Of a stretch of 64,000 nucleotides of DNA, positions 47,718 to 50,986 are shown in pieces (the stretch's first letter is position 1; every line of letters starts with the position of its first letter). A model generated the notes under the pieces. That model ran no database searches, was not told the DNA's origin, and was given only the letters and a program-made list of their open reading frames with translations. Made by a program: the position numbers and the translations under genes. The DNA is taken from NCBI GenBank assembly GCA_013214945.1, contig JABSRT010000010.1, positions 62,001 to 126,000 on the forward strand, in the 5' to 3' direction. This DNA comes from Gammaproteobacteria bacterium (GTDB lineage: Bacteria > Pseudomonadota > Gammaproteobacteria > Enterobacterales > Psychrobiaceae).

Positions 47718-48578
47718 ATGATCCACAGCATGACTGCATTTGCTCGCCAAGAAACTAATGCCGACTGGGGCAATGCTAGCTGGGAAATTCGCTCGGTTAA
47801 TCAACGCTATCTCGAAACCTATATTCGATTGCCAGAACAACTGCGTAGTTTAGAGCCTATTTTACGCCAACGTTTTCGCAACCGACTGCAGCGCGGCAAA
47901 GTAGAATGCAACCTGCGTTTTGAACCGCTTAAGGATCAAACATCCCTCAACATTAATAATAAATTGGCCAGTCAGGTGATAAAGCAAGCCAACTGGGTAA
48001 TACAGCAAGCCGGCAGTGGTTCAATTAACCCGCTTGATATTCTTAACTGGCCCGGAGTAATTGCAGCGCCAGAACATGACATGGACGAAATTAATACCGC
48101 CTTGCTCGCGCAATTTGAGCTCGCGATTGAACAGTTTGTCGCCGCCCGTGCTAGCGAGGGTGATAATCTGAAAACAATGATAGTGACCCGCCTTAACGCC
48201 ATTAGCGAATTAGTATCGACGATCAGGAAACAAATGCCGACGATAATCGAATGGCAACGCCAGCGACTAAATAAAAAATTCGACGAGGCAAAAATTCAGC
48301 TCGATCCAGAACGGTTAGAACAAGAATTAGTCTTGTTGGCGCAAAAAGTTGATGTAGCAGAAGAACTCGACCGACTCGATAGTCATGTCAGCGAAACACA
48401 GAAAATAATGAAAAAAGGCGGTGCTTGCGGCAGACGCCTCGATTTTATGATGCAAGAATTTAACCGTGAAGCCAATACCTTAGCCTCAAAATCAATCAAC
48501 AGTGACATTACCCAAGCCAGCGTTGAATTAAAGGTTTTAATTGAACAAATGCGGGAGCAGATCCAGAATATAGAGTAA
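47718..48578 (+). CDS. yicC: YicC-family endoribonuclease, 3' end serving as an integration site
   Basis: YicC proteins are widespread and have been reported to act as endoribonucleases on small RNAs. The 286-residue protein starts MIHSMTAFARQETNADWG, after AGGGGAAACAAC. It has the C-terminal DUF1732 block DVAEELDRLDSHVSETQKIMKKGGACGRRLDFMMQEFNREANTLASKS and ends IEQMREQIQNIE. The long upstream frame is excluded because it overlaps rph antisense. Its last 23 bases recur as a near copy 1.5 kb downstream. Known mobilizable genomic islands of Vibrio insert at exactly this place, and a truncated integrase start follows here. Confidence 0.95.
   Translation: MIHSMTAFARQETNADWGNASWEIRSVNQRYLETYIRLPEQLRSLEPILRQRFRNRLQRGKVECNLRFEPLKDQTSLNINNKLASQVIKQANWVIQQAGSGSINPLDILNWPGVIAAPEHDMDEINTALLAQFELAIEQFVAARASEGDNLKTMIVTRLNAISELVSTIRKQMPTIIEWQRQRLNKKFDEAKIQLDPERLEQELVLLAQKVDVAEELDRLDSHVSETQKIMKKGGACGRRLDFMMQEFNREANTLASKSINSDITQASVELKVLIEQMREQIQNIE
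48556..48578 (+). repeat. Left attachment-site copy (attL) at the yicC 3' end
   Basis: AGCAGATCCAGAATATAGAG plus TAA forms the last codons and stop of yicC. It matches 20 of 23 bases at 50052-50074, in the same orientation. Similarity begins abruptly at the first base, as expected for a recombination core. Confidence 0.75.
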
Positions 48579-48596
48579 CATCTAGTAAAACCCAGA

Positions 48597-48610
48597 CAGA
48601 TCCAAAATAT
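48597..48610 (+). repeat. Third, shorter copy of the att core
   Basis: CAGATCCAAAATAT matches the yicC end CAGATCCAGAATAT at 13 of 14 bases, 39 bases further on. In the same register it would again read Gln-Ile-Gln-Asn-Ile. It may be an older att scar or an integrase arm site. Confidence 0.5.
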
Positions 48611-48661
48611 TATATTAATGACCAACCAAGCCCCACAAAAACCAAAGCGTTGGAGTGATAT

Positions 48662-48775
48662 ATGGACAGCTTAACGGTTAAAGAAGTCGCATCAAAAGCG
48701 AAAGGGGCACCAGGCCGGTTTTCGGACGGAAATGGGTTACATCTTCAAACTACATATAATAAAAAAGGCACTTAG
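48662..48775 (+). pseudogene. Truncated tyrosine integrase N-terminus
   Basis: An ATG with GGAGTG nine bases upstream opens 37 codons: MDSLTVKEVASKAKGAPGRF then SDGNGLHLQTTYNKKGT and a stop. The pattern LTVKxV...PGRFSDGNGLHL matches the arm-binding (DUF4102-type) N-terminus of phage and island integrases, where about 400 residues should follow. The frame ends inside the terminator of the next gene, so the rest was lost by deletion. It points away from yicC, beside the left attachment copy, the normal place for an island integrase. Confidence 0.7.
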
Positions 48776-48784
48776 AGTGCCTTT
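48764..48784 (-). terminator. Terminator of the 56-residue orphan gene
   Basis: AAAGGCAC and GTGCCTTT pair around five bases. On the minus strand TTTTTT follows. It lies ten bases after the stop of the orphan gene and overlaps the end of the integrase fragment. Confidence 0.85.
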
Positions 48785-48794
48785 GTGTAGAAGT

Positions 48795-48965
48795 TTATGC
48801 TGCTTTTTTCTTTTTGGGACCACTAGTATCTATACCATGAAATTTATTTTCATCGCTCAGCATTTGAGGTGCAGACTTTAATAAAAGTTCCATAGCTCCC
48901 CCTAGACGAGCATACACATCTTCCGCACCGAATAGACTTTTATCTTTTTGGATTGCTTGTTTCAT
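48795..48965 (-). CDS. Orphan small protein of 56 residues in the yicC island
   Basis: The protein reads MKQAIQKDKSLFGAEDVYAR, LGGAMELLLKSAPQMLSDEN, KFHGIDTSGPKKKKAA. It has an amphipathic helix and a lysine-rich C-terminus. TAAGGAATTC precedes the ATG and an intrinsic terminator follows the stop, so it is a complete transcription unit. I do not recognise the family. A nucleic-acid-binding or regulatory role for the basic tail is only a guess. Being cargo of an integrative element, it could be a regulator or an antitoxin-like protein. Confidence 0.65.
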   Translation of the reverse strand: MKQAIQKDKSLFGAEDVYARLGGAMELLLKSAPQMLSDENKFHGIDTSGPKKKKAA

Positions 48966-49142
48966 AATATGAATTCCTTAAGCTTCCTCGCCCCAGTCAT
49001 ATATTATTTATGATATATAAAGCCTATATAGTCAATGTTTAATATTATTAATTTTGATCTGGAACAACGCTGTTATTAATCGTCTCTGTAAAAGCGGACA
49101 AAAATTATACCTGAAATATTACTGAAGAATCAACAAAATTAA

Positions 49143-49670
49143 CTATGAGAATTTTTTCACAGCTAATTCTAAGTCATCTTTTGAAATCTTTAACCTAAGT
49201 GTAGGTTCACTATTTTCCACTCGCGAAAAACCAAAGCCACAATAATAATCTATCAGTTTTTTCGTAGTCGGGCCTACGATTTCCACAGCATCACCGTCTG
49301 TAGCAGAAATAAAGAGAAGAGACGCAATAAGAGTAATCATTACCATGCGCCCGTTTAATGGATGATTCTCGTTATCTCGAATAAAGCTTTCTATAAATTG
49401 AATCTCTAGAGTCTTTTCATTGAAATCATATTCCCCTAACATCGCACCGTCAGGAACACCATCTTGCTGAATTTTAACTGTAAATTCAAATTTATCGTCA
49501 GAATTACCGAACTGTCCGAATCCCCAACCCCATTCCAATTCAGCATAACCAGATGTAAGAATTCTATAGTCGTGGTCTGAAATAGGCCCTACTTTTAAAT
49601 CTAAACCTTGTTGCTCCAGAATCATTTGCAGACTATTAATTACCGCCGAGCTGATTTGATCTATGTTCAA
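49143..49670 (-). CDS. Orphan protein with a GNAT-like C-terminal half
   Basis: A 175-residue acidic protein. It starts at TTG (NIDQISSAVINSLQMILEQQ), with GGGAAGG three bases upstream; the next Met would remove 15 residues. After an aromatic strand AELEWGWGFGQFG comes a pattern like the core of GNAT acetyltransferases: GAMLGEYDF, LEIQFIESF, a helix NGRMVMITLIASLLFI, then KKLIDYYCGFGFSRV, which looks like the closing helix-strand of the fold. The usual acetyl-CoA loop (Q/R-x-x-G-x-G/A) is not clear. AT-rich cargo of the yicC island; no function assigned. Confidence 0.6.
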   Translation of the reverse strand: MNIDQISSAVINSLQMILEQQGLDLKVGPISDHDYRILTSGYAELEWGWGFGQFGNSDDKFEFTVKIQQDGVPDGAMLGEYDFNEKTLEIQFIESFIRDNENHPLNGRMVMITLIASLLFISATDGDAVEIVGPTTKKLIDYYCGFGFSRVENSEPTLRLKISKDDLELAVKKFS

Positions 49671-49802
49671 TGACCTTCCCTTCTCATTAATTTAGTGCCC
49701 CAAGGTTAATCCCTTACTAGGCCATAATCAATAAATATGCTCAATAGAAGTAAATATATTGGCTATGTTCTCCATAAATGCTGCTATGTGTGTAATCAAT
49801 TG

Positions 49803-49903
49803 AAAGTGTTGCTATTTGACAAAGCAAGCTGGAGCACATAGGTACCGCTCTAGAGTCCCACGGATGGGTTTACGGCGACTTGCTGTTCTAATGGCAACAC
49901 TTT
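49803..49903. repeat. 101-base imperfect inverted repeat
   Basis: AAAGTGTTGCTATTTGACAA (from 49803) pairs, with few mismatches and one bulge, with CTTGCTGTTCTAATGGCAAC up to 49903. The stem is about 25 bases long around 50 bases that include CCCACGGATGGG. No open frame lies in it. It may be a small palindromic mobile element, a structured RNA or a folded recombination site. Confidence 0.6.
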
Positions 49904-50051
49904 AGTACAACAGAGCCAAATATATTGAATAGGCAACAAAGAGGCACGGTGAGGCGACCTCCTACCACGCGGTGGGTAAATTGGTGAGTAAGAAACAAAT
50001 AAAGATAAAAACAAGATGCAAATTACAACAAAAAAACAATCATACTCAACA

Positions 50052-50074
50052 AGCAGATCCGGAACATTGAGTAA
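50052..50074 (+). repeat. Right attachment-site copy (attR)
   Basis: AGCAGATCCGGAACATTGAG plus TAA repeats the yicC end with three differences. Read in the yicC frame it gives Gln-Ile-Arg-Asn-Ile-Glu-stop; two of the three changes are silent, so it looks like a true diverged yicC end and not a chance match. Confidence 0.75.
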
Positions 50075-50248: not shown

Positions 50249-50986
50249 ATGAAACTTAACTGTGATATGGGTGAAAGCTTTGGTTCGTGGACTCTAGGCC
50301 TAGACCAAGCGGTTATGCCGTGGGTCGACATGGCCAATATTGCCTGTGGCTTTCATGCGTCCGATCCTGACGTAATGGCGAGCACCATTAAAAGCGCCAT
50401 TGAACATCAGGTTACTATTGGCGCCCACCCAGGTTATGACGACAAGAAAGGCTTTGGTCGTCGCTCAATCCCTTGCTCGTTAACTGAGATTACCCACTTA
50501 GTGGCATATCAAGTCGGTGCAATGCAGGGCATGTGCGCGCTTTATGGCGCGGATGTCAGTTATGTTAAACCTCATGGCGCGTTATATAACGACATGATGA
50601 ACAATCTTGAGATATTTTCTGCTATTGTCGACGGAGTTGCTAGTCAGGCCGCTAAACCCGCTTTAATGATTTTGGCGACTTTCGACCATCAAAAATACCA
50701 AAAATTAGCAGCGCAGCAAGGGGTTAGATTATTGTTTGAAGCCTTTGCAGATCGGGCTTACACCCCCGATGGCAAGCTGGTGCCACGTTCTGAACCAGGC
50801 GCAGTATTACATCAGACCAGTGACATTATTAAACAAGTAGTGAGGCTGGCTGACAGCAATGAAATTGTGGCAACCGATGGTTCTGTACTCCGTATTAAGG
50901 TTGATACTGTCTGTGTTCATGGTGATAATGCCGAATCCGTGGCTTGTATTAAAGCGCTAAAACTCGCGCTGACACAATCTGAATAA
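50249..50986 (+). CDS. pxpA: 5-oxoprolinase subunit A (LamB/YcsF family)
   Basis: PxpA, with PxpB and PxpC, hydrolyses 5-oxoproline (pyroglutamate) to glutamate using ATP, and so clears a toxic by-product of glutamine and glutathione. The 245 residues show MKLNCDMGESFGSWTLG, MANIACGFHASDP, GAHPGYDDKKGFGRR, YVKPHGALYNDM, FEAFADRAYTPDGKLVPRS and CVHGDN, the metal-site pattern of the family. It is the first gene of pxpABC and stands just beyond the right end of the yicC island. Confidence 0.95.
   Translation: MKLNCDMGESFGSWTLGLDQAVMPWVDMANIACGFHASDPDVMASTIKSAIEHQVTIGAHPGYDDKKGFGRRSIPCSLTEITHLVAYQVGAMQGMCALYGADVSYVKPHGALYNDMMNNLEIFSAIVDGVASQAAKPALMILATFDHQKYQKLAAQQGVRLLFEAFADRAYTPDGKLVPRSEPGAVLHQTSDIIKQVVRLADSNEIVATDGSVLRIKVDTVCVHGDNAESVACIKALKLALTQSE

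Follow-up and report, generated by a model that had tools for sequence, protein, structure and literature searches.

The 3' end of yicC serves as an insertion site for several types of element, according to the available portions of three reports (PMC8409611, PMC8978831, PMC4344509), and in the gammaproteobacterial genome analysed here the end of this gene recurs 1.5 kb downstream, which raises the question of whether the DNA between the two copies is the remnant of such an element, and of which kind. A preliminary description had read this segment as the scar of an island related to MGIVflInd1. We compared the window, that is, the whole stretch of 64,000 nucleotides under analysis, with genomes of the same genus, order and class, with other yicC loci and with phage sequences. 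The 1.5-kb segment is very probably an integrase-less deletion derivative of a yicC-targeting element, resembling a cis-mobilizable element (CIME), whose right end carries cargo of phage type.

The target gene yicC is complete (positions 47718 to 48578, plus strand; Pfam YicC-like_N, 1.6e-43, and YicC-like_C, 3.2e-41). Its final 23 bases (48556 to 48578) form the attL core, and a direct repeat on the same strand at 50052 to 50074 forms the attR core. The repeat search returned 23 nt, 87% identical (20/23), at a spacing of 1496, in agreement with the earlier claim that the yicC end recurs 1.5 kb downstream in the same orientation; the abrupt start of similarity at the cores was likewise confirmed, as in the window the similarity ends at the core. 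At no more than three mismatches, the 23-bp core occurs in exactly two places in its own genome (4,699,491 bases), both at this locus, and a reversed control pattern of the 23-mer gave no match in that genome. When the 1.67 kb behind yicC was shuffled 500 times (first order), the closest approach to the core was 18/23, and none of the 500 shuffles attained the 20 of the real sequence. Its uniqueness in a 4.7-Mb genome and the outcome of the shuffles indicate that the repeat is not due to chance, and further copies elsewhere in the genome, which the preliminary description had considered as a case against its reading, were not found. The 23-bp repeat is the core of a yicC attachment site. The interior of the relic has a G+C content of 0.372, versus 0.448 in yicC and 0.436 in the whole window, and the host gene flanking it on the right belongs to the LamB/YcsF family (pxpA-like; 50249 to 50986, plus strand; PF03746, 2.2e-92).

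At the left end, the integrase appears to be reduced to a stub of 37 codons of an Arm_3-type N-terminus followed by TAG (48662 to 48775, plus strand). Its ATG at 48662 lies 83 bp behind yicC with GGAG six bases before it, and its position and orientation are as expected for a yicC-type integrase. Among 21 integrases from yicC sites, the one from genome G099 aligns best, start to start with residues 1 to 28 of the stub (55% over 28 residues, E 2e-5), and the integrase of G311 also aligns from the first residue (58% over 26 residues). The GGAG before the ATG is in keeping with the earlier claim of an integrase-like N-terminus with a good ribosome binding site. In the profile search against tyrosine recombinases proposed with that claim, a profile of the 21 integrases matched the stub at E 0.0049, and the Pfam match to Arm-DNA-bind_3 is weak (12.9 bits, E 0.12, below the curated cut-off of 27). 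An equally strong integrase match (E 0.005) stands at the same position in Aeromonas simiae (locus L077), where a GGTGAGTA motif lies between yicC and the match, so such weak matches can be real remnants.

The right end is of the island type and provides the strongest evidence. The motif pair GGTGGGTA / GGTGAGTA (49971 to 49990, plus strand), whose members lie 12 bp apart start to start, stands 61 bp before the attR core. A pair of GGTGRGYA motifs with the same 12-bp spacing is present in six of the eight island right ends that we compared, with the nearer copy 69-73 bp before the core; as two of these islands, those of G080 and G151, are near-identical and belong to one genus, the six right ends are not all independent. 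Elsewhere in the window (62,480 bp), such motifs number 3 on one strand and 5 on the other. The pair is missing from the right ends of G099, which is the genome whose integrase is closest to the stub, and of G297, as well as from the scar L123 and the unlinked core copy of G176 (L064). Directly before the attR core, TACTCAACA (50043 to 50051, plus strand) contains TACTCAA, an inverted repeat with TTGAGTA of the core, and the exact TACTCAA precedes the core in three of the eight island right ends as well (G310, G050, G172). We regard the GGTGRGYA motifs as putative arm-type integrase sites.

The comparison rests on islands and relics at yicC in other genomes. The 23-mer was matched at no more than three mismatches in 133 of the 394 genomes of the order; eight regions with a second same-strand core copy were fetched (G297, G311, G080, G151, G050, G099, G310, G172), and this second copy lies 8.4-29.6 kb downstream. 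In G151 and G172, the end of yicC itself carries 4 and 5 mismatches to the 23-mer, respectively. A related Arm_3-type tyrosine integrase stands behind yicC in nine other genomes of the order, namely these eight and G004, which belongs to the genus of the window and whose contig ends before any second core copy; for G311 and G004, the integrase was matched by the Pfam families Arm-DNA-bind_3, Phage_int_M and Phage_integrase. The scan of relatives suggested earlier yielded nine genomes with a related integrase behind yicC, and searches with the cargo protein in the 394 genomes of the order and 369 of the class brought up no intact ancestor of the relic. In a second set, the best 80 named loci of 572 candidates, which overlaps with the first (L150 / G080), integrase homology behind yicC was observed at 16 loci: 12 with long integrases (at least 300 residues; that of L087 ends with its contig and that of L108 stops short) and four with a fragment alone, in Aeromonas simiae (L077), Shewanella sp. 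AS1 (L123), Vibrio ruber (L127) and Vibrio ordalii (L136). Locus L123 (6842-9337) presents a short yicC relic, with cores 2.5 kb apart and a truncated integrase. At L114 (6842-10470), from an Aliivibrio MAG, the yicC end is duplicated 3.6 kb downstream without an integrase, and between the copies an HlyD/MFS-like pair and a TetR-like gene were recognised by eye.

The preliminary description had stated that the island lost most of its body, which is correct, although the interior still holds two genes, both apparently intact, which that description had missed, and a dispersed repeat. Both genes lie on the minus strand and read inward from the attR side, in the order of a 175-aa gene (49143 to 49670; phrog_4350, E 2.3e-49), a 56-aa gene (48795 to 48965; phrog_2741, E 1.9e-9) and a terminator-like hairpin (48764 to 48784, minus strand). 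The 175-aa gene has a TTG start behind GAAGGGAAGG. The hairpin, with a 9-bp stem and a T-rich tail, was called by the consensus scan alone, which returned 4 terminator-like sites in the region versus 1.4 in shuffles, and the integrase stub ends within it. Both PHROGs are annotated as function unknown, and neither protein was matched by Pfam or by the defence-system models of PADLOC. No phage structural or replication gene was recognised on reading the open reading frames of at least 40 aa, the PHROG scan covering the two cargo genes. Based on a structural model built with seven relatives (pLDDT 77.7), a set of mutually similar sequences that each share about 42% identity with it, the 175-aa protein is predicted to have a GNAT fold: the model had 245 PDB matches at E<=0.001, and the 50 that were listed are mostly acetyltransferases, with TM 0.40-0.61. 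A first model, without relatives, had a pLDDT of 66.6 and no PDB match at E<=0.001, with AtaT, KacT and other acetyltransferases among its top rows, none of them at that threshold. The cargo unit seems to be intact and is possibly still expressed, and its likeliest role would be an accessory (moron-like) acyltransferase function derived from the ancestor.

The dispersed repeat within the relic (49745 to 49930) has 32 further matches in its own genome. It was found in five of the nine genomes of the genus, with 34, 30, 5, 2 and 1 matches per genome, although some of these could be fragments of a single copy. An inverted repeat lies within it, and several of its matches are partial, as if the repeat were modular.

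The cargo pair also occurs together at loci L065 and L068 and in Enterobacteria phage mEp460, where the counterpart of the 175-aa protein (mEp460_023) is 42% and that of the 56-aa protein 31% identical. A search of viral contigs with the mEp460 protein found 51 loci, in all of which (51/51) the small gene follows, and for 19 of these loci no more than 10 bp separate the contig start from the first gene of the pair. In L189, FUR-family and TraF_2 genes precede the pair and a PrtN-like gene (PF11112) follows. In those of the viral contigs whose sequence was read, the DNA before the pair reads, judging from its peptide, like what we take to be the 5' end of dusA. mEp460 itself is named as the carrier of a dusA-associated integrase in the available part of one report (PMC4482086), and the two observations together place the pair next to the attachment site that lies across from the integrase, reading inward, as in the window. 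The place of the pair is not fixed, since L065 has it upstream of a tape-measure gene rather than at an end. The 175-aa protein had 14 matches at E<=0.1 in the 394 genomes of the order, window included, and at 1e-8 matched the window alone in the 369 genomes of the class; a search of the viral contigs with the same protein found no relative, and the 56-aa protein gave no tblastn match in the phage records. Two of the matching places, in L065 and L068, were viewed in wider context together with L067, and no cargo homologue was seen beside yicC there. The best homologue, in G176, lies on a different contig from the core copy of that genome, and no link between the two was found.

As the cargo matches two phage families, a prophage or an island with phage cargo is just as conceivable an ancestor. 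It is a real possibility, falling somewhat short of probable, that the element derives from a temperate phage whose integrase was of the yicC type, the scar then being a prophage remnant rather than that of an island, given that both surviving genes are of phage families and that the pair adjoins the attachment site in mEp460 and related viral contigs. Against this, the relic retains neither a phage structural gene nor a PrtN-like gene, and no structural gene was noticed by eye in the three island interiors inspected (G310, G311, G099) of the eight fetched. Prophages of the mEp460 type also differ from the relic in integrase and target gene (PMC4482086), and the mEp460 integrase bears only a marginal resemblance to those of yicC sites, with no match at E 0.01.

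The known yicC-specific islands (MGIVflInd1, IEEcoMOD1, GISpuPO1/GI21) share with the relic, in the sections available of their reports, the 3'-end target with the gene kept whole, the integrase next to the left site and the cores at both ends (PMC4344509, PMC8409611, PMC8978831). By the same sections, they differ from it in belonging to a 20-30 kb class, against its 1.5 kb, whereas the relic retains a stub alone, no recognised directionality factor, and cargo of phage families. That the ancestor was specifically a mobilizable island of the MGIVflInd1 type, which has the same target, a similar layout and an integrase next to yicC (PMC4344509 and PMC8409611, in part), is unlikely, because no feature that defines such islands was recognised in the remaining 1.5 kb and several element types use yicC. 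Of the preliminary description, the scar of a yicC-targeting element with both cores and a truncated integrase is supported, the right end agreeing with that of most islands; kinship with MGIVflInd1 in particular is conjectural, the surviving cargo matching two phage families.

Comparison with the other genomes supports a course in which an element with a yicC-type tyrosine integrase would have inserted at the 3' end of yicC, keeping the gene whole, and the insertion would have made the second core copy at the far end of the element. From the anatomy of the relic, an internal deletion would then have removed everything between about codon 35 of the integrase and the terminator behind the cargo, and the left-arm sites would have been lost too; the deletion junction is placed right behind the cargo because the hairpin overlaps the end of the stub. 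The remaining order would be the attL core, the stub, the terminator, the 56-aa gene, the GNAT-fold gene, the dispersed repeat, the right-arm sites and the attR core. Left-arm GGTGRGYA motifs, present in 11 of 22 other left ends, including all six islands with the right pair, were not found at the left end of the window, which keeps the core and the stub. As the other 11 of the 22 also have none, their absence proves no deletion.

The presence of the right motifs and the lack of the left ones would also suit a composite, in which the left and right ends come from two elements that inserted successively at yicC and were fused by deletion, and a weak third core-like stretch (48595 to 48617, plus strand; 15/23) lies near the left core. 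This stretch, possibly a chance likeness, is given no weight, as at least 15/23 was attained 75 times when these 83 bp were shuffled 2000 times, and one element with one deletion accounts for all parts; we hold a composite to be improbable.

The locus varies within the genus. YicC was matched in four of the nine genomes, that of the window included, and the other five gave no match, one of them being at 100% completeness in 9 contigs. Behind yicC stand a TonB-receptor-like gene in G002, a hipBA-like pair (recognised by eye) in G003, and an integrase with a primase-helicase-like gene in G004, the names being given by eye except for genes that were scanned, such as the G004 integrase. None of these three relatives shares the 1.5 kb; such sharing without any island is what the preliminary description had named as counting against its reading. 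No genome was found with an empty site in which yicC joins the right flank directly; a pxpA-like gene was found in four of the nine genomes, that of the window along with G003, G004 and G008, and its upstream side was read in G003, where by eye it is preceded by a pilin-like gene. In G003 (L015, 3570-5151), the hipBA-like pair lies directly behind yicC, with hipA converging on yicC, likewise by eye. The available part of one report places hipAB at the end of yicC islands (PMC8978831).

A plain duplication of the yicC end, involving no mobile element, has a counterpart in L114, one of the 80 named loci (best of 572), where the second copy extends upstream into more of yicC and no integrase is present; in the window, the similarity ends at the core, island-type sequence precedes the copy and a stub lies behind yicC. 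The motif pair and the stub effectively rule such a duplication out here, leaving it a very small probability. A chance repeat joined by a chance open reading frame, to which the weakness of the stub taken alone might point, is rejected as having next to no probability by the uniqueness of the pair in 4.7 Mb, the 0/500 shuffles and the motif pair.

The deletion derivative is CIME-like in having att sites at both ends and cargo inside without a working integrase, a likeness that is anatomical and read from the sequence; the left-arm motifs are absent, and no close yicC-type integrase occurs elsewhere in the genome. The best other integrases there are 26-27% identical to that of G311, in a search that missed the stub itself. 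With the stub alone left and no closer integrase among these, the relic is most likely immobile by itself. We would give little credence to a more far-reaching proposal, in which the relic is no debris but a stable minimal cassette: selection would have preserved the intact GNAT/56-aa operon, which would travel at the right end of unrelated integrative elements, dusA prophages as well as those at yicC, and serve as a small unit of lysogenic conversion or addiction, and losing everything else would have fixed it in the chromosome.

Much of this is ordinary genome archaeology, the relic at yicC being clear but of a known type. It records a final stage of islands at a much-used insertion site, and comparable scars are found elsewhere, as 4 of the 80 named yicC loci (the best of 572) have an integrase fragment alone behind the gene. 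In addition, it draws attention to a conserved and uncharacterised phage gene pair, phrog_4350 and phrog_2741, which appears to adjoin attachment sites of different specificity and for which a GNAT fold can be proposed.
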